Positions 1-13,375 of a stretch of 64,000 nt of DNA are shown here, piece after piece. The stretch lies in NCBI RefSeq assembly GCF_004959855.1, contig NZ_SPNT01000001.1:1-64000 (forward strand). Reading direction: 5' to 3'. A program made the position numbers and the translations under genes. The stretch comes from Nitratireductor sp. XY-223. GTDB lineage: Bacteria > Pseudomonadota > Alphaproteobacteria > Rhizobiales > Rhizobiaceae. Positions within the stretch are counted from its first letter, which is position 1. Each line of letters starts with the position of its first letter. The notes beneath the pieces are model-generated. The model ran no database searches. It was given only the letters and a program-made list of their open reading frames with translations, and was not told where the DNA came from.

Positions 1-1028
1 AAGCGGCCGAAGGCGGCTATCTGCAGCAATGGGCGATGAACCTGATGCTGATGAACGTCTCGACGCGCAAGTTCGGCCGCGCGGTGCGCTTGCCCGAGGC
101 CGGTGTTCCCGCGGCTGCGGGCGCCGGGCTGTCGAAGTCGGCGGTTTCGCGCCGCTTCAAGGCGCTGACCGAGGCGCGCCTTGCCGAATGGATGGCGTCC
201 GACCTGTCCGAGCTTGATCTTCTGGTCATCCAGATCGACGGGCTTCATCTTGACGACAACCTGCTGATGATCGGTGCGGTGGGGATCGACGCGGACGGCG
301 CGAAGCACCCGTTGGGCGTGATCGAGGGCGCGACGGAGAACGCCGCCGTGGTGCAGGCCCTGCTCGACAATCTGATGGACCGGGGTCTGGATCCGACAGT
401 CTGCCGGCTGTTCATCGTCGATGGCGCGAAGGCCCTGACCAAGGCGATCCGCCGGACCTTCGGCGCCACCACCCCGATCCAGCGATGCCAGGTCCACAAG
501 GCCCGCAATATCACCGACCGGATCGACCCGAAGCATCGCGTTGCCGTGCGCCGGGCCTTGCGGCAGGCCTGGGAACTGGACGACGCCGAAAAGGCGGAAC
601 GGCTGTTGCGCAATCTGGCGCGCCGGCTTGAGGACGATGCTCCCGGCGTGTCGCAATCCATCCTCGAGGGGCTTGACGAGATCCTCACCGTCACCCGCCT
701 CGGGCTGCCGCTGGAATTGCGCCGGTCGCTGGCCTCAACCAATATCATCGAGTCGATGAACAGCGTGATCCGCCAGGTCTGTCGCAACGTCAAGCGCTGG
801 CGCAATGCGAAGATGGCGTTGCGCTGGACCGCCGCAGGCATGCTCGAAGCCGCAAAGGGCTTCCGCCGACTCAATGCTCGCAAGCAACTGCCGATCCTCA
901 AAGCCGCTCTCCACAGACATGGCGCAGGATCGGGCGACAGCAACCAGGTTGACGACATGGCGCAGGCCGCCTAATCATGAAACCGCAACGCTGCCCGTTC
1001 CTTTTTCAACAGAGAACGGGACATCCCC
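1..1028 (+). mobile_element. 3' part of an IS256-family insertion sequence
   Basis: The element enters from the left edge of the window and contains the transposase reading frame plus about 55 bases of right end. Its outer border is inferred at about 1020-1035, because GAPDH-like protein similarity resumes soon after that point. Within the right end, CCCGTTC at 994-1000 and GAACGGG at 1014-1020 form an inverted pair. The left end, the left terminal repeat and the target duplication lie outside the window, so the exact border is not established. The element has cut into the gene that follows. Confidence 0.75.
3..974 (+). CDS. IS256-family (mutator-type) transposase, 5' end outside window
   Basis: DDE transposase that would cut and paste the element. 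The frame is open from the first bases of the window, so the N-terminus is missing. Visible landmarks are the first catalytic Asp in IQIDG near 237, the second in IVDGAKAL near 420, the downstream RCQVHK motif near 484-500, and the Glu in NIIES near 742-752, followed by the basic tail. About 323 codons are present, against about 400 for full-length family members, consistent with truncation by the window edge rather than decay. No stop or frameshift is visible, so the copy may be intact. Confidence 0.9.
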   Translation, partial: AAEGGYLQQWAMNLMLMNVSTRKFGRAVRLPEAGVPAAAGAGLSKSAVSRRFKALTEARLAEWMASDLSELDLLVIQIDGLHLDDNLLMIGAVGIDADGAKHPLGVIEGATENAAVVQALLDNLMDRGLDPTVCRLFIVDGAKALTKAIRRTFGATTPIQRCQVHKARNITDRIDPKHRVAVRRALRQAWELDDAEKAERLLRNLARRLEDDAPGVSQSILEGLDEILTVTRLGLPLELRRSLASTNIIESMNSVIRQVCRNVKRWRNAKMALRWTAAGMLEAAKGFRRLNARKQLPILKAALHRHGAGSGDSNQVDDMAQAA

Positions 1029-1039
1029 GCTCCGGGGTG

Positions 1040-1795
1040 AAATCTAATGTCGTTGCCTCGCACGAGCTGGTTGCACGGGATGATGTTCGAAAGGTTGTTG
1101 TCACGCATTCGCCGAAGAACGATATAGACATGCATGTCATCATGGGTATCAACCACAAAGAATACAATCCGAGTGCAGACCATGTGTTGTCGAGTTCAAT
1201 TTGCGACGCCAACGCGATCGCGCATCCTTTGAAAGCGCTGAATGACGCTGTTGGTGTCATTGGCGGTAGCGTGACGACGCTGCATCCGTGGCTGAATTAT
1301 CAGAACCTTCTTGATGCGCCGGTTGCGTCGCAGCGAGATCCTGGACACGTCTGGAAAGACTATTCTTTGGGCAGGACGAGTGTTGGTTCGTTAATCCCGA
1401 AAAACACGACGGCTGTAGAGGCGTTGAAGCCGGTGTTGGGTGATCTTGCAGAGCGCATCGGCAGCTTTTCATATCGAACTCCGAACACTGTAGTCGCAAG
1501 CGCTGATCTCACACTTCTTCTCGACCGGAATTTGTCTCAGGCGGAGCTTGAAGACATATTGAATTCCGCCTTCGACGGTTCGCCTTTCGTGGCGCTGAAT
1601 TGGCAATCGTTGATTTCGCTAGATTACCAGGGTCAGCCGTGGTCTGCCGTGATTGATATGCAATGGGTCAAGGCTATAGGCGGCGGCCTGGTTAAGATTG
1701 TTGCTTGGTATGACAATGAGTGGGGCTACGCCTCGAGGGCGCTAGATGTGGCCGTCCATTCGGTGAGCGCGAACGATTTTGAGTTTAACCGATAG
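1040..1795 (+). pseudogene. GAPDH-like dehydrogenase, N-terminus removed by IS256 insertion
   Basis: The reading frame runs out of the insertion sequence into the catalytic half of a type I glyceraldehyde-3-phosphate dehydrogenase-like protein. An ATG at 977 opens the frame but lies inside the IS. The catalytic Cys (SSICDAN, replacing the usual SxSCTTN) and the active-site His (TTLHPW) are kept, as is the family signature YDNEWGY near the C-terminus. The Rossmann NAD-binding half is almost wholly absent, so the product is probably inactive. The divergent Cys motif suggests a substrate other than glyceraldehyde-3-phosphate; Epd-type erythrose-4-phosphate dehydrogenase is one family alternative. 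It stands 15 bp before the cytidylyltransferase and was probably a member of that operon. Confidence 0.8.
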
Positions 1796-1810
1796 GCTGG
1801 GAAATCGAAG

Positions 1811-2575
1811 ATGATTTGTGGATTGCTGATTGGCAAGGATCGTAGTGAAGGCGTTCCGGGAAAGAATTTTCGCGAGATTGTCGGGCGTCCGATGTGTGAG
1901 TACGGATTTATCGCCGCGCGCGCTATGGGCGTTGACCGGTTATTTACATCCACCGACAGTCCTCGTATTGCGGAGATCGGTGCGAAGTATAAGGCCGAGC
2001 ATATTGAGCGGCCACCTGAACTCGCGACGCCCGACGCGCTAACAGAAGATGCCTTGACACACGCTGCTGACGAAATGGAGCGTCGTATCGGCCGCGCACC
2101 AGAAATTGTCTGTCTTCTCTTTGCTAACAATCCAGCTATTGACGTGAAGCTTTTGAACGAAGGCGTCGAAATTTTGCGGATGGACGAAACCTACGATTCA
2201 GCTTTCTCAGTTTGCCGCTATGACATGTTCAGCCCGACGCGAGCACGCCGCGTCACGGAAAAGGGGGATATCGAGCCTTTCGTGCCGCTCGAGGCTTTTG
2301 ATGGCGAAGTTTCGTCGATCCGGTCGAGTCAAGGAGGCGTTTATTTTTGTGACCTTTCCGTTCAAGTCCTGCGTTGGCGTTGCTTCACTCGCATGTCCGA
2401 AGGGATGCAGCCCTTCCAGTGGATGGGTCGCAAGTCGAAGGCACTGATGAATGATTTCGGCTTTGACGTTGATAGCGAATGGCAGTTCCGCGTTATCGAT
2501 TTCTGGCTGCGCGATCGCGGGTTTACTGAAGACAAGATCCCCTATGACCTTGGTGATCCATCGAACTGGACCTAG
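1811..2575 (+). CDS. Cytidylyltransferase of the NeuA/KdsB-like family
   Basis: Predicted to couple CMP to a sugar acid (or CDP to a sugar phosphate). The N-terminal nucleotide-binding motif is recognisable as KDRSEGVPGKN at residues 9-19, a variant of the RxGSKGxPxKN motif of acylneuraminate cytidylyltransferases. The following TSTDSPRIAEI stretch matches the family's SDD-type region. Length (254 aa) is close to NeuA/KdsB. It follows the truncated GAPDH-like gene by 15 bp and precedes the aldolase by 17 bp, so it is probably co-transcribed. GC content is lower than in the genes beyond 7.1 kb. The substrate cannot be read from the sequence. Confidence 0.8.
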   Translation: MICGLLIGKDRSEGVPGKNFREIVGRPMCEYGFIAARAMGVDRLFTSTDSPRIAEIGAKYKAEHIERPPELATPDALTEDALTHAADEMERRIGRAPEIVCLLFANNPAIDVKLLNEGVEILRMDETYDSAFSVCRYDMFSPTRARRVTEKGDIEPFVPLEAFDGEVSSIRSSQGGVYFCDLSVQVLRWRCFTRMSEGMQPFQWMGRKSKALMNDFGFDVDSEWQFRVIDFWLRDRGFTEDKIPYDLGDPSNWT

Positions 2576-2592
2576 CTATGAGGAACGGTAGC

Positions 2593-3372
2593 ATGCTGAA
2601 GGCGCGCCTTGATGCCGGCGAAACAGTACTTGGAACGTGGAATGTTATTCCCGACCCCACCGTTGTAGAGATTCTAGCGGATGCTGGGTTTGATTTTGTT
2701 GTCATCGACATGGAGCACGGACCGCATCATTTCGTCGGCGCGTGTGATCAGATTCGTGCGGCGGAGGCGCACGGAGCGGCGGCCTTGCTGCGCCCGCCCG
2801 GCGTTGATGAGTCTGCGATCCTTCGCGCGCTCGATAGCGGTGCCCACGGCTTGCTCGTGCCGAATATATCGTCACTTGCGCAAGTCCAGTCACTTGTTCA
2901 ATTTGCGTTTTATCCGCCGCAGGGTGCGCGCGGACATTCTCCATTTACGCGCGCGGGCGGCTTCACCCATGTTGATGCCGGCACGCGTATGAAGGAGATG
3001 AACGAGAAACTATTTCTTGGCATTCTGATCGAAGGTACAGACGGCCTCACAGCATTGCCTGACATTCTCACAGAGTTCGGTGAGTCACTGGGTGTTGTCT
3101 ACGTCGGTCTTTACGACCTTGCGAAATCGCTTGGACAGACCGGTAATGTAAAACATCCTGATGTTACTGACTCGGTGAAGAAGATTGCGGCGATGACCGC
3201 CGAGCACGGCGTTCATTGTGGCACGTTGTGCAATGATCGAGAAATGTTAGAAATTGTCCGTGATGCCGGTGTGCGCCTGATTTGTTATCAGAACGACACG
3301 GGTATTTTTCACGAAGCGGCAACACAAATCTCCAAAACCGTAAATGAGATAACATTGGGGCGGATGTCTTGA
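2593..3372 (+). CDS. HpcH/HpaI-family aldolase
   Basis: Class II (metal-dependent) pyruvate aldolase related to HpcH/HpaI and 2-keto-3-deoxy-L-rhamnonate aldolase, which reversibly join pyruvate with an aldehyde to give 4-hydroxy-2-oxo acids. The N-terminal GTWN...DFVVIDMEHGP block and the YPPQGARG segment are characteristic of the family, and 259 aa is the usual length. I chose the ATG at 2593 over 2578 because GAGGAA at 2579-2584 serves as its ribosome site. The stop overlaps the next gene's ATG as TGATG, which implies translational coupling. In this context the enzyme may build rather than degrade a deoxy-ulosonic acid (inference). Confidence 0.85.
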   Translation: MLKARLDAGETVLGTWNVIPDPTVVEILADAGFDFVVIDMEHGPHHFVGACDQIRAAEAHGAAALLRPPGVDESAILRALDSGAHGLLVPNISSLAQVQSLVQFAFYPPQGARGHSPFTRAGGFTHVDAGTRMKEMNEKLFLGILIEGTDGLTALPDILTEFGESLGVVYVGLYDLAKSLGQTGNVKHPDVTDSVKKIAAMTAEHGVHCGTLCNDREMLEIVRDAGVRLICYQNDTGIFHEAATQISKTVNEITLGRMS

Positions 3373-4388
3373 TGACATACAAAGTAGGCGTTACCGATTA
3401 TGTCGAGGAACCCCATGCGATTGAACGGGAGGCCCTCGGCAATGATTGGGAAATCGTCTGGCTGAACGCTCATGAAGAAACGGACTTCGACGCAGATCGC
3501 CTAGCTGATCTGGACGCTCTTCTCGTCTGGCACGCGCCGATCACTGAGCGCGTTGCAAAAATGCTGAAAAAATGCCGAATCGTCGTGCGTTACGGCGTCG
3601 GATTCGATGAGATTGACGTCGCTGCACTCGAAGCTCAAGGGATAGCGTTTTGCAATACGCCTGATTATGGCACGGAAGAAGTTGCCGATACCACCGTTGC
3701 TATGATCTTGATGCATCTGCGCCGTATCGCCGAATATGATTACCAATGTCGAAACTATACCGAAGGTTGGCAAGAACATACGCTCGCGCCGTTGGAGCGC
3801 TCGCGCGACCGGACGCTCGGCGTGGTTGGCGTTGGCCGTATCGGATCGGCGGTCATGCGGCGGATGCGTCCCTTTGGGGTTTGCCTTGTCGGGTACGATC
3901 CTAACGTCCCGTCCGGCCACGAAAAAGCCCTTGATTATCAGCGCGCCACATCCTTACATTCCCTGTTGTCGCAAGCTGATATTGTTACCGTTCACTGCCC
4001 AGCCGATGCATCGACTACCGGTATGATAGACGAGTCGTTTATTGCGGCGATGAAGCCTGGCTCGATTCTGGTTAACACTGCCCGTGGCGCACTCATCAAT
4101 TCGCTGGACGTGATTGAGGACGGTTTGCGATCCGGTCGCCTTCTCGCAGCAGCGCTTGACGTATTACCGAGCGAGCCGCCCACGGATCATCCGCTTATCG
4201 ATGCTTGGCGCCGAGCAGAACCATGGCTGCGCGGACGCTTCACGATAACACCGCATACGGCTTATTATTCGGAGCGCGCTTGGCGGGAAATGCGGTACAA
4301 GGCGGCGGAGACGGCGAGATTGTTCTTTGATGCCGGGATCGAGCGTAACCGAATTCGAGGAGAGGACAATCGTGACCGAATCCTTTAG
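3372..4388 (+). CDS. D-2-hydroxyacid dehydrogenase (SerA/PdxB superfamily)
   Basis: NAD(P)-dependent oxidoreductase interconverting a D-2-hydroxy acid and its 2-keto acid. The Rossmann motif GVGRIG lies near residues 153-158. The catalytic triad is visible as Arg in NTARGAL, Glu in LPSEPP and His in TPHTAYYS. At 338 aa it has the typical length. The start ATG at 3372 shares bases with the aldolase stop; a TTG one codon upstream is less likely. The next gene begins inside its 3' end (17-bp overlap), consistent with a tight operon. A GAPDH-like enzyme followed by this family recalls the Epd-PdxB pair of vitamin B6 synthesis, but the substrate here is unknown. Confidence 0.85.
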   Translation: MTYKVGVTDYVEEPHAIEREALGNDWEIVWLNAHEETDFDADRLADLDALLVWHAPITERVAKMLKKCRIVVRYGVGFDEIDVAALEAQGIAFCNTPDYGTEEVADTTVAMILMHLRRIAEYDYQCRNYTEGWQEHTLAPLERSRDRTLGVVGVGRIGSAVMRRMRPFGVCLVGYDPNVPSGHEKALDYQRATSLHSLLSQADIVTVHCPADASTTGMIDESFIAAMKPGSILVNTARGALINSLDVIEDGLRSGRLLAAALDVLPSEPPTDHPLIDAWRRAEPWLRGRFTITPHTAYYSERAWREMRYKAAETARLFFDAGIERNRIRGEDNRDRIL

Positions 4389-5067
4389 ATTCCCTTGGCG
4401 GACATGGGTATTTGATTGCGATGGCGTTATTCTCAATTCCAATAGTGTAAAACGCGACGCGATGTTTCGCGCTGCGTTGCCGTATGGTGAACACAACGCG
4501 CGTGCGCTTGTTGATTATCATGTGCACAATTGCGGTATTGGGCGGGAGATCAAGTTTTATCGCTTTTTGAACGAGATTGTTGGTCTTAGGGAAGGAGTGG
4601 ACGACGCCTTCAATGCGTTGATGACTGCCTACAGCCGGGAGTTGTGGAATGGTGTCATCGCCTGCGAAGAGGCGCCTGGGTTGCGTGAGGCGCTGAAGGT
4701 CCTGCGTGACGACGGTGTTTTGCTCTACGTTGTTTCCGGCGCCCAGCAAATTGAGTTGCGTTCTATTCTCTCCGAGCGTGGGCTCATCGGTTTTTTCGAC
4801 GGTGTTTTCGGTTCCCCCGACAGCAAGGACGAGATACTCGCCCGGGAATTTGCGAGTGGCGCGATGACGCGGCCCGGCATATTTATCGGTGACAGCCGAT
4901 ATGACGCTGACGCGGCGGCGCGGGCTGGACTCGATTTCGTGTTCTTACATGGTTGGTCGGATTTTGATGATTGGCGTTCCTACTTCGCATCGCGAGTGCC
5001 GTTGCTGATTCAGGAAACATTCCAGGATTTTATGACGTGTGTTTTTGAACGACGGGCACACCAATAA
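4372..5067 (+). CDS. HAD-superfamily hydrolase, phosphoglycolate-phosphatase-like
   Basis: Predicted small-molecule phosphatase. Motif I is FDCDGVI (nucleophile and acid/base Asp), motif II is the Ser of VVSGAQ, and motif IV is the acidic pair of GDSRYDADAA, so the active site is complete. I chose the GTG at 4372 because AGGAGAGGA lies just upstream at 4357-4366; an in-frame ATG at 4327 lies well inside the preceding gene. Length is 231 aa. In the neighbourhood of a pyruvate aldolase and a cytidylyltransferase its simplest role is to remove a phosphate before nucleotide activation, as KdsC does in Kdo synthesis (inference). Confidence 0.85.
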   Translation: MTESFRFPWRTWVFDCDGVILNSNSVKRDAMFRAALPYGEHNARALVDYHVHNCGIGREIKFYRFLNEIVGLREGVDDAFNALMTAYSRELWNGVIACEEAPGLREALKVLRDDGVLLYVVSGAQQIELRSILSERGLIGFFDGVFGSPDSKDEILAREFASGAMTRPGIFIGDSRYDADAAARAGLDFVFLHGWSDFDDWRSYFASRVPLLIQETFQDFMTCVFERRAHQ

Positions 5068-5074
5068 TCATTCT

Positions 5075-6922
5075 ATGGGCGTGATAAGCGATAGCAACTT
5101 TCATATGAGAAAAAATAGACTGGATAAGATGCTCGACGAGGCGACACGATGCTCGCGCGCTGGGAAGATAGAAGCGGCAGTCGCTCTTTGGCGGGATATC
5201 ATTCCGCATACGAAGGTACCGTCAAGGGAAAACAAGCATGCGCGCGTAACAGCGGGGCGCGATTTAGCAAAACTTGAACGGCTGGATGACTCAAACGCCA
5301 TATATGACGGTGTCATTGCCGACTATGAGGATGATTTTGCGGTGTTTCACCACGCCGCGCAGGTTGCATTCGCGTCAAACCAGCGCGAGCGATCCGAGCG
5401 ACTGTTTCGCGAAATATGTTTGCGCTGGTCGGATAATCCAAAAGGGTACTCCGGTCTTGCTAAAACGCTTGCGCGTCGCGGTGCGTATTCCGAAGCATCC
5501 GTAATATTGATGGTCGCATTGAGCGCTGTTAAGGCAAGAGACGAATTAGCGTCGGAATGTGCCGACATCCTTCATGAACTCAACGAACATGAAACTGCTC
5601 TTAGGTTGTTGGAGAAAACACCGGAGAGGGTGCGTAGCGCGCTTCATTGGCATCAGTATTTTCGTCACCTTTCAGCGGCAGGTCGACATGACGATGAACT
5701 CACGGCCATGAAAAGGTATTTCGAAAATGGTGTTGAGAGTGCGCAGTCACCTGCTTCCACTGATGGCGTTAGATTTGCGTCAATTTTGTACCGCCGTGGG
5801 GAAGTCAAAGCAAAAGGGTTGCGCGCCGAGGATGCCAATTGGGTGAGGGTTAACGAGGCGTATTCAGAATCGATTGCGGGGCAACAACCGTTTCAGCCGG
5901 AGCCTGGTCGCCATCGGGTTGCCGTGTGCATTTCTGGGCAACTCCGCGGTTTTGATCTCGCCTATCCGACAATCAAAAAGTTCATGATTGATGATCTGCA
6001 GGCTGATGTTTTCATTTCAACCTGGCGTCGACGCGGGATAAAGATGTCGGGTTTTCACGCTAATCTTCAAACTTATTTTCATGATCACTTTGTGAATAGC
6101 GTGCCGCTTGAATATTACGGCAACAATTTTTTGAGAAAGTTTCCGTCAATTGAAGACGTCATGGTTGAACTTGGTGAAAGCGACTTGGTTACGGATGACG
6201 CCCTGTCCCGGCTTTATCCGGATGCGGAAATATTTATCGCCGATGAAGATGAGTTCGAGAACCGCATTGCCGAAAGATTTTCCTCCAATGCGAAATTATT
6301 TCGCGCACGCATACCGCGAAACCAGATCAAGATGTATTATCACATCTGGAAATCCAATCAGATGAAATGCAAGGCTGAGCGTCGCCTTGGACGGCGTTAC
6401 GACCTGGTTGTTCGCATCCGTCCTGACAAGGAATTGCGCAGCGATATGGTTTCGCACGCGCCCTTGTATCCATTTGAAATCTTCGCCGATAAGGTGAAGC
6501 ATCGCGACTCAATAGGCGATCGGATCGCGTACGGTACGTCGGCGGCGATGGATATCTATTCTGACATTTGGCAGCGGGCGCTGGACTGGGAAAAAGGTGC
6601 ACTACCCAATGGATTTCGTCGTAACATTGCGCCGCATACGTTCATGTTTGATCATCTTTGGACTGCGGGGCTTGGAATACGAGCCATGCCGCCACAGCTT
6701 CTCGGGCCTGACCGTAGTGCCAAGGTCCCACCACCGCGCCTTGCCGAGGCGGTGATTCACGATCTATCGCAGGAAAAAAATTTAAGCGAACGTGATCGAG
6801 CAATCGGACAGGCGGCGCTTAATGATGCTGTGTTATACATAAAGGCGCGTGAAGGGGATGTTGCGGCAGAGGACTATATTCAAAAATGGAAGACTGTGGC
6901 ACCAGATTTTAAGTTGCAATAG
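5075..6922 (+). CDS. TPR-repeat protein with putative glycosyltransferase-like C-terminal domain
   Basis: About 615 aa. The N-terminal half (to about residue 270) is helical with TPR-like repeats. The C-terminal half starts with VAVCISGQLRGF, a motif I associate with uncharacterised proteins in capsule and LPS gene clusters, and continues with DVFISTW and YDLVVRIRPD, features compatible with a GT-A-like nucleotide-sugar fold. No membrane segment or signal peptide is seen. The start is uncertain: ATG 5075 is given, GTG 5039 overlaps the HAD gene, and ATG 5105 is also possible; none has a strong ribosome site. It is the last gene of the low-GC operon and may transfer the activated sugar made by its neighbours (inference). 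Confidence 0.6.
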   Translation: MGVISDSNFHMRKNRLDKMLDEATRCSRAGKIEAAVALWRDIIPHTKVPSRENKHARVTAGRDLAKLERLDDSNAIYDGVIADYEDDFAVFHHAAQVAFASNQRERSERLFREICLRWSDNPKGYSGLAKTLARRGAYSEASVILMVALSAVKARDELASECADILHELNEHETALRLLEKTPERVRSALHWHQYFRHLSAAGRHDDELTAMKRYFENGVESAQSPASTDGVRFASILYRRGEVKAKGLRAEDANWVRVNEAYSESIAGQQPFQPEPGRHRVAVCISGQLRGFDLAYPTIKKFMIDDLQADVFISTWRRRGIKMSGFHANLQTYFHDHFVNSVPLEYYGNNFLRKFPSIEDVMVELGESDLVTDDALSRLYPDAEIFIADEDEFENRIAERFSSNAKLFRARIPRNQIKMYYHIWKSNQMKCKAERRLGRRYDLVVRIRPDKELRSDMVSHAPLYPFEIFADKVKHRDSIGDRIAYGTSAAMDIYSDIWQRALDWEKGALPNGFRRNIAPHTFMFDHLWTAGLGIRAMPPQLLGPDRSAKVPPPRLAEAVIHDLSQEKNLSERDRAIGQAALNDAVLYIKAREGDVAAEDYIQKWKTVAPDFKLQ

Positions 6923-7115: not shown

Positions 7116-7799
7116 CTAATAGTCATCAAGATGAAGAATTTTATTTGCATATTTTTCGATTAGCGTATTGTTATGACTTGCCAATACCGAGATACCTGCA
7201 TTCTCCGTCATTTCCATCATCCTCCCTCGCGCCTTTTCCTGAAACGCCTCGTCCCCCGCGCCGATCCACTCATCCATCAGCAGTATCTCCGGCTTGAAAC
7301 TGGTTGCAATCGAAAAGGCCAATCTTGCGGCCATGCCCTGGCTGTAGGATTTGAAGGGGAGGTCGATGAAATCGCCGAGCTCGGAGAAGGCGATGATATC
7401 GTCCATGCGTTCCTGGATTTCGTCGCTGGTCCAGCCGTTGATCAGGCCGCGGAGTTCGATGTTGCGGCGGCCGGTGGCTTCGGGGCGGAATCCGAGCCGG
7501 ATGTTGAACAGCGCATCCACGCGGCCTTCTATCTCGACGCTGCCGCTGGTCGGCGGATAGATGCCATAGAGCACCTTGAGCAGTGTCGTTTTTCCCGCGC
7601 CATTGGGACCAACGAGCCCGAGCCGGTCGCCGGCCTTCAGTTCGAAGCTGATGCCGTCAAGTGCCGTGACATAGCGGTTGCGGCCGGTGCCGTGGATGTT
7701 GCCGCCGGCCTTAGCCATTCGATGCTTTCGCGGCGCCAGCGACAATTTCTGGCGGACCCTGTAGATCAGGCGGAGGTCTTTCACGCGGATCGAAACCAT
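7116..7799 (-). CDS. Polysaccharide ABC transporter ATP-binding protein (KpsT/Wzt type)
   Basis: ATPase that powers export of a capsular or O-antigen polysaccharide through the permease encoded just upstream. Walker A is GPNGAGKTT, the signature region is [13 protein letters not shown], Walker B is [13 protein letters not shown], and the H-loop is LASHNN. The 227-aa protein is a bare nucleotide-binding domain without the C-terminal carbohydrate-binding domain of long Wzt proteins, so it resembles KpsT and short Wzt. The ATG overlaps the permease stop (ATGA shared bases at 7797-7801). The last part of the gene is more AT-rich than the rest, close to the border with the low-GC island. Confidence 0.9.
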
Positions 7800-8587
7800 C
7801 AGAGCACGAAGACGATCTGCCTGCGGAACAGGCCCATCAGCAAAAACGCCGTCAGCCACAGCACGGCCCCGATCGCCAGGCAGATGCCGAACGCCGTCAA
7901 TGGGATGCCGCCCGTCATAACCGGATCCCGTACGATGGCGAGATAATAGGAGAACGAATTCCAGTCGGCGAGGATGCGCCGCACGCCGCCGCCGCTTCCG
8001 ACCGTCCAGAAGATCGGTGTGAGAAACAGGCCCAGGCGCATGACGTTCTGGACGACGAACTGAAGATCTGGAAAAAACGCGCCGCCCATGGCGAACACCG
8101 TGATCGCAGCGGGTGTCGTCAGCGCGATGACCAAAAGCCCGAGCACTGCCCAAAGCCAGCCAACGGACAGCGACGTGCCCACAACGGCAAGCAGCGCCAG
8201 GCAGCCGGCAAGCATGTAACCGCCGCGGATGGCCGACTGCATTGTCAACCGCATGACGTAGACAGACAGGGGCAGGGTCGTGCCCTTGATGAAGTTCTCC
8301 TCGCGAACGAAAAGCGACACGCTTTGCGTGATCGCTTCTGACATGTAGAGCCAGACGAACAGCCCGACCGCCACGTAGGTTTCGTAGTGCGGGATGCCTT
8401 CGCCGCGGCGGAAGATCAAGATGAAGGTGCCCGCGAATGCGAGGTAATTGAGCAGCAGCCACATGGGCCCCAGCGTTGTTCGCTTGTGCTGGTCGCCAAT
8501 GTCCTCACTGGCCAGCGCGACCCACACCCGCCAGCGTGACAGACCGTCCCTGAAATCGCCGATCGCGTCGGCAAAGATCGAACCCAA
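7799..8587 (-). CDS. Polysaccharide ABC transporter permease (KpsM/Wzm type)
   Basis: ABC-2 type inner-membrane permease of about 262 aa with roughly six hydrophobic helices after a cytoplasmic amphipathic N-terminus ([25 protein letters not shown] is split by the conserved region leading into the first helix). It pairs with the ATPase downstream for polysaccharide export. The given start is TTG at 8587; no ATG or GTG is available in frame upstream before the stop at about 8657-8659, so a TTG start or an unusual upstream start must be used. It is followed by translational coupling to the ATPase gene. Confidence 0.88.
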
Positions 8588-8686: not shown

Positions 8687-10570
8687 TCAGTCGTTGATTT
8701 CCAGATTCAGCTCTTCAAGCAGGGAACGCGCCAGCTTCTCCGCCGAACCTCCTTGCGTCTCCAGCCGGAACTCCGGCCGCTCCGGTGCCTCGTAGGGGCT
8801 GTCGATGCCGGTAAAATTCGGCAGTTCGCCGCGCCTTGCCTTGCGGTAGAGGCCCTTGGGGTCGCGTTCCTCGGCGACTTCCAGCGGCGTGTCGACGAAG
8901 ATCTCGACGAATTCGCCTTCCTCGAACATCTCGCGGGCCATCTGGCGCTCGGCGCGGAACGGGGAGATGAAGGCGGTCATGACGATCAGGCCGGCATCGA
9001 CCATGAGCTTGGCGACCTCGGCGATGCGGCGGATGTTCTCCACCCGGTCGGCGTCGGTGAAGCCGAGATCGCGGTTGAGGCCGAGGCGGACATTGTCGCC
9101 GTCGAGGATATAGGTGCGGAAGCCCTTGGCATGCAGCTTCCGCTCAAGTGCGTTGGCGACCGTCGACTTGCCCGAGCCGGAAAGGCCGGTGAACCACAGG
9201 ACCCGGCCGGGATGACCGTTGAGCCTGGCGCGCGCCTTCTTGTTCACCGTCACCGCCTGGCGGTGCACGTTGTCGGCGCGGCGCAGGGCGAAATCGATCA
9301 TGCCGGCGCCGACCGTCTGGCGGGTCTGTCGGTCGATGAGGACGAATGCGCCCATCGGCGGGCAGTCCGCATAGGTCTCGAAGGCGACCGGCCGGTCGAG
9401 GGCGAGTTTAACGACCGAGATGTCGTTGAGCTCCAGCGAGCGGCCCATCATCTCCTCGAAGGTGTTGATGTTGAACGTGTGGCGGATTTCCGAGATCGTC
9501 GCGTTCACGGTTGCCGTGCCGGTCTTCATCAGATAGGTGCGGCCGTGAAAGCCGCTGTCCTTCGCCATCCAGACGAGCTTCGCCTCGAACTGGTCGGACG
9601 TCTCGCACGGCTCCCTGGCGGCGACAAGGACGTCGCCGCGGGAGATGTCGACGTCCCGGTCAAGCGTCAGCGTGACCGCCTGGTCCGCCTCGGCGGCGCC
9701 GAGTTCCGTGTCGCCGAGGACGATCGAATTGACGGTCGCGGTCTCGCCCGAGGGCAGGATGCGGATCTCGTCGCCTGGCGCCACCTTACCTGCGACAATC
9801 GTTCCGGCGTAGCCGCGGAAATCGAGATTGGGCCGGTTGACCCACTGGACCGGCATGCGGAATCCGTGATCGACAAGCGCCTTTCGCGTGTCCACCGCGC
9901 CGAGGAAACCGAGCAGCGTCGGGCCGTGATACCAGGGCGTGTTGACGGAACGGGCAACGACGTTGTCGCCCGCCAGCGCCGAGACGGGGATTGGCGTTAC
10001 GGTTGCAAAGGCGAAGCGCTCGCAGAGCTCCGTATAGTCGGTGACGATGTCGTCGAAGACCGCCTGGTCGAAATCCACCAGGTCCATCTTGTTGACGGCC
10101 AGGACGATATGGCGGATGCCGAGGATCGAGGCGATGAAGGAGTGGCGGCGGGTCTGCTCGAGAATGCCCTTTCGCGCATCGACCAGGATCACCGCTGCGT
10201 CGGCGGTCGAGGCGCCGGTCACCATGTTGCGGGTGTACTGTTCGTGCCCCGGGGTGTCGGCGACGATGAACTTTCGCTGATCGGTGGCGAAATAGCGGTA
10301 GGCGACGTCGATGGTGATGCCCTGTTCGCGCTCGGCGCTCAGCCCGTCGACCAGCAGCGCGAAGTCGATCTCCTCGCCCTGCGTTCCGATCTTCGACGAG
10401 GTCCTTTCAAGTTCGGACAACTGGTCGTCGAGGATCATCTGGGCCTCGTACAGCATGCGGCCGATCAGCGTCGACTTGCCGTCGTCGACACTGCCGCAGG
10501 TGATAAAGCGCAGGGTCTCGAGACCGGCCTGGTTTTCGAGATATGCTTCGATCTCTTGTCGCGCGGTCAT
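8687..10570 (-). CDS. cysNC: Bifunctional sulfate adenylyltransferase large subunit / APS kinase (CysNC, NodQ type)
   Basis: Fused enzyme making PAPS: the N-terminal GTPase part drives ATP sulfurylase (with CysD) and the C-terminal part phosphorylates APS. GTPase motifs are GSVDDGKST near residues 26-34, DTPGHEQY and NKMDL. The APS kinase P-loop GLSGSGKST lies near residue 462. At 627 aa it matches NodQ/CysNC. The ATG at 10570 overlaps the cysD stop (ATGA), giving coupled translation of the two subunits. A longer open frame extends upstream inside cysD but is only a shadow. In a polysaccharide cluster the product PAPS may serve a sulfotransferase, although none is encoded in this window. Confidence 0.93.
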
Positions 10571-12054
10571 CAGAAGTACCCTTCCTGCTTCTTCTTCTCC
10601 ATGGAGGCGGCCGCGTCGCTGTCGATGGCGCGGCCCTGGCGCTCGCTGTTTCTGGCCCGAAGCAATTCGAGGATGACGGAATCGAGATCGCAGGCGTCCG
10701 ACTCGATGGCGCCGGTCAGCGGGTAGCAACCGAGGGTGCGAAAACGGATCCTGCCGAATTCGACTTCCTCGCCGTCCATCGGCTGCAGCCGGTCGTCGTC
10801 GAGCATGATCAGCATGCCGTCGCGCCGGACGAAGGGACGCATGGCGGCGAAATAGAGCGGGACGATGGGAATCTCCTCGCGGTGGATATAGTGCCACACG
10901 TCACGCTCGGTCCAGTTGGAGATCGGGAAGACGCGGATGCTTTCGCCCTTGCCGATCGCCGTGTTGTAGAGGTTCCAGAGTTCCGGGCGCTGGTTCTTCG
11001 GGTCCCACCGGTGACTGGCGGTGCGGAAGGAGAATATGCGCTCCTTGGCGCGGCTTTTTTCCTCGTCGCGCCGCGCGCCGCCGAAGGCGACATCGAATGC
11101 GTGCTCGTCCAGTGCCTGCTTGAGACCTTGCGTCTTCATGATGTCGGTGTGCACGGAACTGCCGTGGTCGATCGGATTGATGTTCCTTTCCACCCCTTCC
11201 GGGTTTGTGTGGGTGATCAGCTTCATGCCGGCCTCGGCGGCCATGCGATCGCGGAACTGGTACATTTCCCGGAACTTCCAGCCGGTGTCGACATGCAGAA
11301 GCGGAAACGGGGGAGGCGAGGGATAAAAGGCCTTCTTCGCCAGATGCAGCATGACCGACGAATCCTTGCCGACCGAATAAAGCATGACCGGGTTTTCGGC
11401 AGTCGCGGCGACCTCGCGCAAGATGTGGATACTCTCGGCTTCCAGGCGATCGAGGTGAGACAGGGTCGCCGGACGGGGCGCGGTGCCGCGGCCGCTTCCG
11501 GCGGCGGGGCCGGCACAGGAGGGGGCATAGACAGCGAGCGCGGACTGCAGATTTCCGGCGATCCTGCAATCCGGGTCGGCAAGTTCCCGCAAGCGCCCGC
11601 AAAGCGCGGCATGCGGCCACAGCAGCGTCTTGTCGGCGGCGTCGCCGCACAGCGCGGCAAGCGCTTCGACCAGTTCTTCGTCCTCCGGGTCAGGGCGGCT
11701 CAGAAAGACCCAGCGCCGCGCCTGCCGTCCGTCATTGGCCGCCAGCAGCGGGCGGCCTGAGGGTGTCCGGTGTACCTGCACGAACAGGGACACAGCGCGT
11801 TCGGAACGCGCCCTCTGCAAAAGGGCCTCGGCCGCGTATTTGCGCACCGGGATTTCGTTTTCATCGACAATATCGACAAGCGAAAGCGCCGGCGGAAGCA
11901 AGCCTTTTGACGCGACACTGCGTTCGACGGTCCGTTTCGAGGTTGCCGGCCCTTCCTCCTCGAGCAGCGCATGCAGCAGTTCAATCGTCCAAGGCTCGCG
12001 CCGACCCGCCGGACCAAGGCGGTTCTTCAATGCCTCATCGGGAAACGCTTCCAT
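10570..12054 (-). CDS. cysD: Sulfate adenylyltransferase small subunit CysD with a ~198-aa N-terminal extension
   Basis: The catalytic CysD part begins near 11460 ([16 protein letters not shown]) and runs about 296 residues with the PP-loop [18 protein letters not shown] and the [20 protein letters not shown] region, ending in the usual EKKKQEGYF tail. It catalyses APS formation with CysN. In front of it the frame stays open for about 198 residues back to an ATG at 12054 that has a good ribosome site (GGAG seven bases upstream). The extension includes acidic and helical stretches ([13 protein letters not shown]) and matches no domain I recognise. No ATG is visible at the normal CysD start, so a real fusion is likely, though an internal non-ATG start cannot be excluded. 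Confidence 0.88.
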
Positions 12055-12074
12055 GGCAATCTCCGTCGCAATAT

Positions 12075-12156
12075 GCAAAATATGTCTTATTGATACGAAG
12101 CACGAAATGAATTTGATGTAAATAGGGGAATTTATTTCGCTTCGAATGCATTTTGC
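12075..12156. promoter_or_regulatory. Nested inverted repeat in the cysD-gmd divergent promoter region
   Basis: The AT-rich stretch between the divergent cysD and gmd genes contains nested dyads. The outer pair is GCAAAAT (12075-12081) and ATTTTGC (12150-12156). The inner imperfect pair is 12096-12113 (CGAAGcaCGAAATgAATT) and 12129-12144 (AATTtATTTCGCTTCG). The arrangement suggests an operator or promoter control site for one or both operons; no regulator gene is adjacent. Confidence 0.45.
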
Positions 12157-12289
12157 GACAATCCCGGATTCTTGCCATTGCCGCCGGCGGCGCGCCTCAC
12201 GAAACAAGGATTGGGCTTTCAATTGGCGATGCGGATTGCTAGGAACGGCGGCGGTCGGAACAGGCCAGACAAACGACAGGAACCGGACA

Positions 12290-13375
12290 TTGAGCAAAGT
12301 TGCGTTAATTACAGGAATCACCGGGCAGGACGGCGCCTATCTTGCGGAATTCCTTCTGGGCAAGGGCTACACCGTCCACGGAATCAAACGCCGGTCCTCA
12401 CTGTTCAATACCGACCGGATCGATCATCTCTACCAGGACCCGCATGTGGAAAACCCGAGGCTGATCCTGCACTATGGCGATCTTACGGATTCGTCGAGTC
12501 TGGTGCGGACGATCCAGCAGGTGCAGCCCGACGAGATCTACAATCTGGCCGCCCAGTCGCATGTCGCCGTTTCTTTCGAGGAGCCGGAATACACGGCCAA
12601 TTCGGACGCGCTCGGCGCGCTGCGGCTGCTGGAGGCGATCCGTATTCTCGGGCTGGAGAAAAAGACGCGGTTTTACCAGGCCTCGACGTCCGAACTCTAC
12701 GGCCTTGTCCAACAGGTGCCGCAGACCGAGACGACGCCGTTCTATCCGCGCTCGCCCTATGCGGTCGCCAAGCTCTACGCCTACTGGATCACGATCAACT
12801 ACCGGGAGGCCTACGGCATGTATGCCTGCAACGGCATCCTCTTCAACCACGAGAGTCCGCTGCGCGGCGAGACATTCGTCACCCGGAAGATTACCCGCGC
12901 CCTGTCGCGCATCAAGCTCGGCCTCCAGGACTGTCTTTATCTCGGAAATCTCGATGCCAAGCGCGACTGGGGCCACGCCAGGGATTATGTGGAAATGATG
13001 TGGCTGATGCTGCAACAGGAACAGCCCGAGGATTTTGTCATAGCGACCGGCGTGCAATACAGCGTGCGGGATTTTGTGAATGCGGCGGCCAAGGAGGCCG
13101 GCATCGCCATTAGCTGGCAAGGCGAGGGCGTCGAGGAAAAAGGCATTGACGACAACGGCAAATGCATCGTTTCGGTAGACCCGCGCTATTTCCGGCCGGC
13201 GGAGGTGGAGACTTTGCTCGGCGATTCGGCAAAGGCGCGGGAAAAGCTCGGCTGGACGCCGACGACGCGCTTTGAAGACCTTGTCGCGGAAATGATGCGT
13301 GAGGACCTGCAGTCGGCGGCGCGCGACGAGCTGGTCAAAAGCCACGGATTTTCCGCCTATAATTATCACGAGTAG
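12290..13375 (+). CDS. gmd: GDP-mannose 4,6-dehydratase
   Basis: Extended short-chain dehydrogenase converting GDP-D-mannose to GDP-4-keto-6-deoxy-D-mannose, the first committed step to GDP-L-fucose. The NADP-binding [11 protein letters not shown] motif is at the N-terminus, the catalytic Thr/Ser region is STSELYG, and the YxxxK pair is in SPYAVAK; the NHESPLRG substrate motif is also present (canonical NHESPRRG). I chose TTG at 12290 because the conserved N-terminus begins there and AGGA lies upstream; the frame is open further upstream but that part is arginine-rich and unlike the family. At 361 aa it has normal length. fcl follows after 5 bp. Confidence 0.93.

Follow-up and report, generated by a model that had tools for sequence, protein, structure and literature searches.

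To our knowledge, CMP-activated sugar acids (Kdo, sialic, legionaminic and pseudaminic acids) are built by synthases that use phosphoenolpyruvate (PEP). The HpcH/HpaI aldolases and the fumarylacetoacetate-hydrolase-family (FAH) enzymes bind 2-oxo acids via Mg2+ and act through enolates, and an HpaI-type aldolase, or a short-chain dehydrogenase/reductase (SDR) together with an FAH-type hydrolase, are alternative branches of 2-keto-3-deoxyrhamnonate catabolism. The Epd-PdxB pair stands at the start of pyridoxal phosphate synthesis.

The locus considered here lies within the first 64,000 nucleotides (the window) of contig NZ_SPNT01000001.1 of Nitratireductor sp. XY-223, i.e. at the start of contig C11 of genome G000. 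One tight low-GC operon (1029-5067) groups the C-terminus of a GAPDH-like protein with a NeuA-like CMP transferase (CMPT; P0001), an HpcH/HpaI-type aldolase, a D-2-hydroxyacid dehydrogenase (DH) and a HAD-superfamily phosphatase. We tentatively propose, at somewhat less than even probability, that this module makes a CMP-activated 2-keto sugar acid (ulosonic acid) for a surface glycan, that it has spread horizontally, and that its enzymes act in an oxidative order. The module resembles the Kdo and nonulosonate (sialic, legionaminic, pseudaminic) pathways in its CTP_transf_3 CMP transferase, in the presence of a phosphatase and in its location in a surface-glycan locus, but differs from them in having an aldolase or FAH enzyme together with two dehydrogenases, and a CMPT that falls in a separate clade. 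Neither has a PseI/NeuB-type synthase been found: neither the window nor positions 1-20000 of contig C1, onto which the locus continues, matched a PseI query at E 1e-2, the other parts of the genome not being searched. Dehydrogenases and an aldolase/FAH enzyme in place of a PEP synthase predict both a new CMP-sugar and a new route to it.

Operon structure and composition

The genes of the module in the window are the following:

1029..1795, + strand: GAPDH-like gene, C-terminal part (PF02800, 71.9 bits; GAPDH profile A6, 390.6 bits, profile positions 93-337)
1811..2575, + strand: NeuA-like CMP transferase, CMPT (PF02348, 38.1 bits)
2578..3372, + strand: HpcH/HpaI-type aldolase (PF03328, 95.5 bits)
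3372..4388, + strand: D-2-hydroxyacid dehydrogenase, DH (PF02826, PF00389)
4372..5067, + strand: HAD-superfamily phosphatase, GTG start at 4372 (PF00702, 49.5 bits; DxDGV and GDSxxD motifs)

The five families that a preliminary description had named in this operon are confirmed by Pfam matches, and the two junctions that it had pointed out are present in the sequence: the TGA of the aldolase gene and the ATG of the DH gene are fused as TGATG, and the DH and HAD genes overlap by 17 bp. Only 2 bp separate the CMPT stop codon from the aldolase ATG. The low GC content that it had ascribed to the cluster is also borne out, with values of 0.52-0.56 for the operon genes (0.55-0.58 at third codon positions, GC3), against at least 0.59 in 50 of the 56 1-kb intervals from position 8001 onward, and 0.66 (GC3 0.84) for the transposase gene of the insertion sequence (IS) that precedes them.

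Recurrence of the module

Further loci in which the CMPT accompanies a GAPDH-like gene are listed below with their gene orders; viral status stands for IMG/VR membership, and the HAD-like labels in L049, L054 and L061 for a motif recognized by eye.

L039 (Sneathiellales metagenome-assembled genome contig, G061): GAPDH-CMPT-aldolase-DH, with an intact GAPDH-like gene of 344 residues
L054 (83 kb viral contig): GAPDH-small HAD-like-CMPT-aldolase-DH, CMPT 52% identical
L061 (175 kb viral contig): GAPDH-CMPT-aldolase-DH-small HAD-like
L059 (71 kb viral contig): HAD-GAPDH-CMPT-FAH-DH
L049 (G966): GAPDH-HAD-like-SDR-FAH-CMPT-DH
L062: contig ending after GAPDH-CMPT

Two contigs 94-95% identical to L059 (L058, L060) were not counted separately, the HAD-like proteins of L049 and L054 have no Pfam or NCBIfam match, and phage-type genes lie beside the module in L061 and L062 (by eye). 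The core gene order is the same in five of the six GAPDH-type loci (the window and those listed above other than L062), and the slot held by the aldolase in four of them is filled in the remaining two (L049, L059) by an FAH enzyme, which is nearest to 2-keto-3-deoxy-D-arabinonate dehydratase in L049, and to HpaG and other FAH enzymes in L059. The module thereby recalls 2-keto-3-deoxyrhamnonate catabolism (an aldolase in some loci, an SDR with FAH in L049), from which it differs in adjoining a CMP transferase and, in L059, in an FAH gene with no adjacent classical SDR (by eye).

A second locus type comprises eight loci with a related CMPT (L041, L042, L043, L044, L048, L050, L055, L056). An extended SDR with at least 38% identity is present in six of them (not L050 and L055), a DH in five (L041, L042, L044, L048, L056), a HAD in five (L041, L042, L043, L044, L048) and a Pgl-like gene in three (L041, L042, L043); in L048, a cyclase-family hydrolase sits between DH and HAD. 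None of the aldolase and FAH queries matched in these eight loci at E 1e-4; absences in L043 and L050 mean little, because L043 ends just past the CMPT and L050 (G566), a contig of 9.8 kb, has no partner genes and just a fragment of the CMPT at its edge. L055 has a CMPT but no DH; a small L061-type HAD lies at a distance of 3 kb, and its SDR is a distant one. A radical-SAM-like protein is encoded in several of L041, L042, L043, L044, L048 and L056.

The set turns up in unrelated genomes as well as on viral contigs and is therefore more than a chance gathering, and the co-occurrence of these families, a check called for in the preliminary description, is well supported: the set is found in the Sneathiellales genome and in two viral contigs, with two more loci having FAH. 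As the set recurs elsewhere, the order cannot be dismissed as unique to this genome. Eight viral loci with other GAPDHs (L063-L070) served as a control, and no CMPT, aldolase, FAH, DH or HAD adjoins GAPDH in them at E 1e-4, although L066-L069 are more than 99.9% identical and count as one sequence (five distinct in all), and some loci (L063, L065) are short on one side. A KdsB-like gene (L066 15572-16273, also in L067 and L069) was observed on a viral contig 6.6 kb from a canonical-type GAPDH, on the opposite strand.

The module is nevertheless rare. The scans used overlapping genome sets, so that their counts are not additive. Among relatives, the CMPT was matched in 20 of 61 genomes (own included) at E 1e-3, always at 38% identity or less outside the window, and the 60 relatives hold no close homologue (best match 1.3e-19, 29% identity). 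In the same genus, L051 and L052 combine a distant CMPT (28%) with a HAD, without GAPDH, aldolase or DH; L053 shows the distant CMPT alone. Across the class, 20 of 385 genomes were matched at E 1e-12, only G061 (68%) and G387 (44%) exceeding 40% identity besides the window; across the phylum, five of 398 were matched at E 1e-30 (own, G783, G535, G588, G566). A search at E 1e-40 with a six-CMPT profile found three of 321 genomes in the class of G783 (G783, G910, G966), one of three in the order of G966 (G966 itself) and three of 48 in the class of G535 (G535, G588, G566), and a GAPDH-clade profile at E 1e-80 matched the own genome alone among 398 (own included).

Plasmids gave 25 records matching the CMPT, all below 60% identity, 11 of them annotated as acylneuraminate or pseudaminic acid cytidylyltransferase and 14 without annotation under the match. 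INPHARED phages searched with the L054 CMPT gave no match, nor did a viral scan with P0001 as sole query. Scanning genome contigs with two short patterns, which is not exhaustive, returned only the Sneathiellales contig of G061. A DNA pattern for the GAPDH motif found 11 stretches, six on contigs already known and five (L075, L078, L079, L080, L083) without any module gene. This rare and scattered occurrence, together with the low GC content, suggests horizontal spread. No description of the module was found in the titles and abstract openings of the papers retrieved from open-licence PubMed Central; the available sections of PMC12168206 and PMC12409901 contain nothing on such a pathway, and those of PMC8560999 cover aldolase chemistry.

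Two further arrangements were observed. On a 65 kb viral contig (L072, 6783-8665), a small HAD-like gene, an HpaI-type aldolase gene and a KdsB-like CMPT gene (labelled by eye and by tree) stand in a row, without GAPDH or dehydrogenase. Just downstream of the module in G061 (L039 15215-19070, to G061:C37 21156) lie genes for two NeuB-like synthases, an SpsF-like cytidylyltransferase, an NAD-epimerase-like and a NeuC-like protein.

Enzymes of the module and their known relatives

The CMPT belongs to the CTP_transf_3 family (NeuA/KdsB/PseF superfamily) by its Pfam family, P-loop, DxD motif and fold, its fold model most resembling the synthetases of CMP-NeuAc, CMP-Pse, CMP-Kdn and CMP-Kdo, and GlmU only slightly less. 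These features agree with the CMP activation of a sugar acid that had been proposed, and the predicted assignment to a CMP-sugar-acid pathway is well supported. The enzyme falls short of the curated cut-offs for PseF and KdsB: it reaches 74.6 bits against PseF (TIGR03584, cut-off 205.7) and does not match KdsB (TIGR00466, cut-off 155.2) at E 1e-3, its only KdsB-type match being to a subfamily model (23.3 of 234 bits). Eleven CMPTs of both locus types form one clade (support 98/98), those of L059 and L061 falling outside on long branches.

The seven module GAPDHs also form a single clade (100/100), separate from E. coli GapA and Epd, from the canonical GAPDH of the same genome and from four other viral-contig GAPDHs. 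All seven keep the catalytic Cys and His (the latter within HPWLxYQN) and carry Ile-Cys-Asp at the site of the Ser-Cys-Thr found in GapA, Epd and the own GAPDH; a Leu at the phosphate-site position that follows is uninformative, because Epd has Met there. Against Epd (TIGR01532, cut-off 530.55), the partial remnant scores 117.3 bits and the full-length L049 protein 210.3; against type I GAPDH (TIGR01534, cut-off 367.2), the values are 142.5 (partial) and 252.7. A structure model of the GAPDH-like protein has a pLDDT of 77 but drops below 50 over residues 184-222, which lie in the active-site region, and was therefore set aside.

Six module DHs group together (100/99), apart from SerA, PdxB, GhrB and the second-type DHs, several of which lie on long branches. 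An Arg, a Glu and a His are invariant in all six, which we take to be the catalytic triad of the D-2-hydroxyacid dehydrogenase family. The DH scores 100.7 bits against PdxB (NF001309, cut-off 434), and its best curated model is phosphoglycerate dehydrogenase (TIGR01327), at 188.3 of 454 bits. The likeness to the Epd-PdxB pair noted in the preliminary description thus holds at family level (a GAPDH-family protein with a D-2-hydroxyacid dehydrogenase) but no further, since both proteins score far under the cut-offs and form clades of their own apart from E. coli Epd and PdxB, and the module has Cys-Asp for Cys-Thr.

The aldolase is a member of the HpcH/HpaI superfamily (HpaI, GarL, YfaU/RhmA) by PF03328 and by conserved Glu-His, Arg, Glu and Asp columns in common with GarL and YfaU, which are presumably catalytic. 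It differs in scoring below the cut-offs of HpaI (TIGR02311, 140.7 of 368.8 bits), GarL and YfaU-type models, and in a Tyr that precedes the metal-ligand Asp in all five aldolases compared (window, L039, L054, L061, L072), where GarL has Ser and YfaU Ala. The window HAD has AHBA_synth_RP as its best NCBIfam match (34.1 bits), matches phosphoglycolate phosphatase models at up to 25 bits, and has a cap motif in common with the HADs of L059, L042, L044 and L048 (by eye).

Proposed route and alternatives

We read both locus types as sharing a CMPT, a HAD, a 2-hydroxyacid dehydrogenase and an aldehyde- or lactol-oxidising candidate, which is the GAPDH-like protein in one type and the SDR (with a lactonase candidate in some loci) in the other. 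The replacement of the aldolase by FAH in two of six loci, and the second type in which no aldolase was found, suggest that the 2-keto group arises by oxidation; the aldolase/FAH slot is read as a second step on a 2-keto acid, because both families use Mg2+ enolates. In the order of steps that we infer, the GAPDH-like protein would turn a small aldose phosphate into an aldonate by oxidising its aldehyde, and the DH would oxidise the C2 hydroxyl of this aldonate, giving a 2-keto acid without PEP. The aldolase (FAH in sister loci) would then apply Mg2+-enolate chemistry to a 2-keto acid, either in an extension with pyruvate or hydroxypyruvate, or in a C3 epimerisation or a tautomerisation, before the HAD removes the phosphate and the CMPT places CMP on the anomeric hydroxyl. 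Pyruvate or hydroxypyruvate extension is possible, as an option rather than the core of the route. According to excerpts of PMC7610986, some HpcH/HpaI-type aldolases accept hydroxypyruvate and some take ketones as electrophiles.

A more general and more doubtful proposal is a PEP-independent route to CMP-ulosonic acids in which an aldose phosphate undergoes two NAD-dependent oxidations in succession. The route would come in two versions, one with the GAPDH-like enzyme and one with an SDR (joined by a lactonase in some loci), and phages may use it to remodel the surface glycans of their hosts. Since viral contigs carry the module, it is a candidate for such virus-driven change.

An alternative that survives best, although we consider it unlikely, is the one favoured in the preliminary description, in which the aldolase extends an aldehyde (phosphate) with pyruvate into a 3-deoxy-2-ulosonate that is then dephosphorylated and activated with CMP, the GAPDH-like protein and the DH supplying the acceptor. 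The aldolase is indeed present in four of six GAPDH-type loci with its catalytic columns intact, such aldolases use glyceraldehyde and erythrose as electrophiles in the portion of PMC7610986 consulted, and L072 joins an aldolase, a KdsB-like CMPT and a small HAD-like gene with neither GAPDH nor DH. Yet the very loci in which FAH takes the place of the aldolase, and those of the second type, speak against pyruvate extension as the defining step. In addition, going by what is known of the families, GAPDH chemistry consumes the acceptor aldehyde and a 2-hydroxyacid dehydrogenase makes none. What stands of the earlier scheme is the new CMP-sugar-acid operon.

It is less probable that these are sugar genes pooled in a polysaccharide island without a common pathway, with the CMPT activating Kdo or a nonulosonate precursor made elsewhere. 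Polysaccharide loci generally shuffle modules, and nonulosonate genes do adjoin the module in G061; these, however, carry their own SpsF-like CMPT (by eye), P0001 lies far from PseF and outside the KdsB equivalog, and a set whose order is kept in unrelated bacteria and viral contigs, with GAPDH and DH partners in clades of their own, is hard to reconcile with loose association. Least probable, by a little, is a route in which the DH converts 3-phosphoglycerate into 3-phosphohydroxypyruvate and the HAD releases hydroxypyruvate as the aldolase nucleophile, so that the ulosonate activated with CMP would be 3-hydroxylated (non-deoxy): the best curated model of the DH, the weak phosphoglycolate phosphatase matches of the HAD and the 19 of 571 screened class II aldolases, all of this family, that accept hydroxypyruvate (in the part of PMC7610986 available) fit it, but it leaves the GAPDH-like protein, and FAH in L049 and L059, without a role, and the second-type loci without a detected aldolase.

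Disruption of the GAPDH-like gene by an IS256-family element

Returning to the proposed oxidative route, the gene of its first step is interrupted in this strain. Two features define the interruption:

3..1028, + strand: IS256-family element, right part (NF033543, 205.5 bits, cut-off 150; PF00872)
1029..1037: 9-bp direct repeat GCTCCGGGG, target-site duplication of the IS, with a second copy on C1

The transposase open reading frame (ORF) runs off the start of contig C11, and the right end of the IS, at 1028, was fixed from the 9-bp repeat and an inverted end sequence on C1 (by eye). GCTCCGGGG flanks the IS at both junctions, on C11 and on C1, and with the transposase score this places the element in the IS256 family, whose target duplications are 8-9 bp long. 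ORF 977-1795 is a fusion with the IS end, the GAPDH-like sequence restarting at 1029. Contig C1 carries the N-terminal half at its end (G000:C1:115-417, minus strand; profile positions 1-96). In G000 the GAPDH profile has three matches: these two halves, of which the C-terminal one scores 390.6 bits, and the canonical GAPDH on C59, at 206.8 bits. An IS256-family element has split the GAPDH-like gene: the "remnant" of the preliminary description does contain the GAPDH C-terminal domain (PF02800), but it is not free-standing, its other half being on C1.

Old decay of the gene was considered and rejected, given the perfect 9-bp duplication and the in-frame flanks, which suggest that the insertion is recent. 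Only part of the population may carry it, and the pathway may be off in this strain because the gene is split. The assembly breaks at this IS copy: C1 and C11 end on either side of one insertion, and more of the polysaccharide island lies on C1.

Surrounding polysaccharide island

Two neighbouring features of the window lie downstream of the HAD gene:

5075..6922, + strand: tetratricopeptide repeat (TPR) protein, last co-directional gene (TPR_19, 22.6 bits, under the Pfam cut-off of 25)
7116..8587, - strand: Wzt/Wzm-like polysaccharide ABC exporter, outside the module (ABC_tran, 77.8 bits)

The TPR gene is the sixth in the same direction, and its position in the locus suggests a role in glycan assembly; the C-terminal half of the protein has no Pfam or NCBIfam match at E 1e-3. 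The exporter scores 207.7 bits against NF050108 and 112.3 against NF050109, each under its own cut-off. On the other side, the low-GC stretch runs on along C1 for about 14 kb, with glycosyltransferase-like and sulfotransferase-like genes (from translations, by eye), and dTDP-rhamnose-type genes follow further out, at a GC of 0.57-0.64 (by eye). The surface-glycan setting assumed in the preliminary description is in keeping with the adjoining exporter and with these genes of C1. Genes resembling CysN/CysC and CysD (sulfate activation, by eye) are found beside the exporter at 8687-12321; together with the sulfotransferase-like genes of C1, they suggest that the glycan of this locus may be sulfated.

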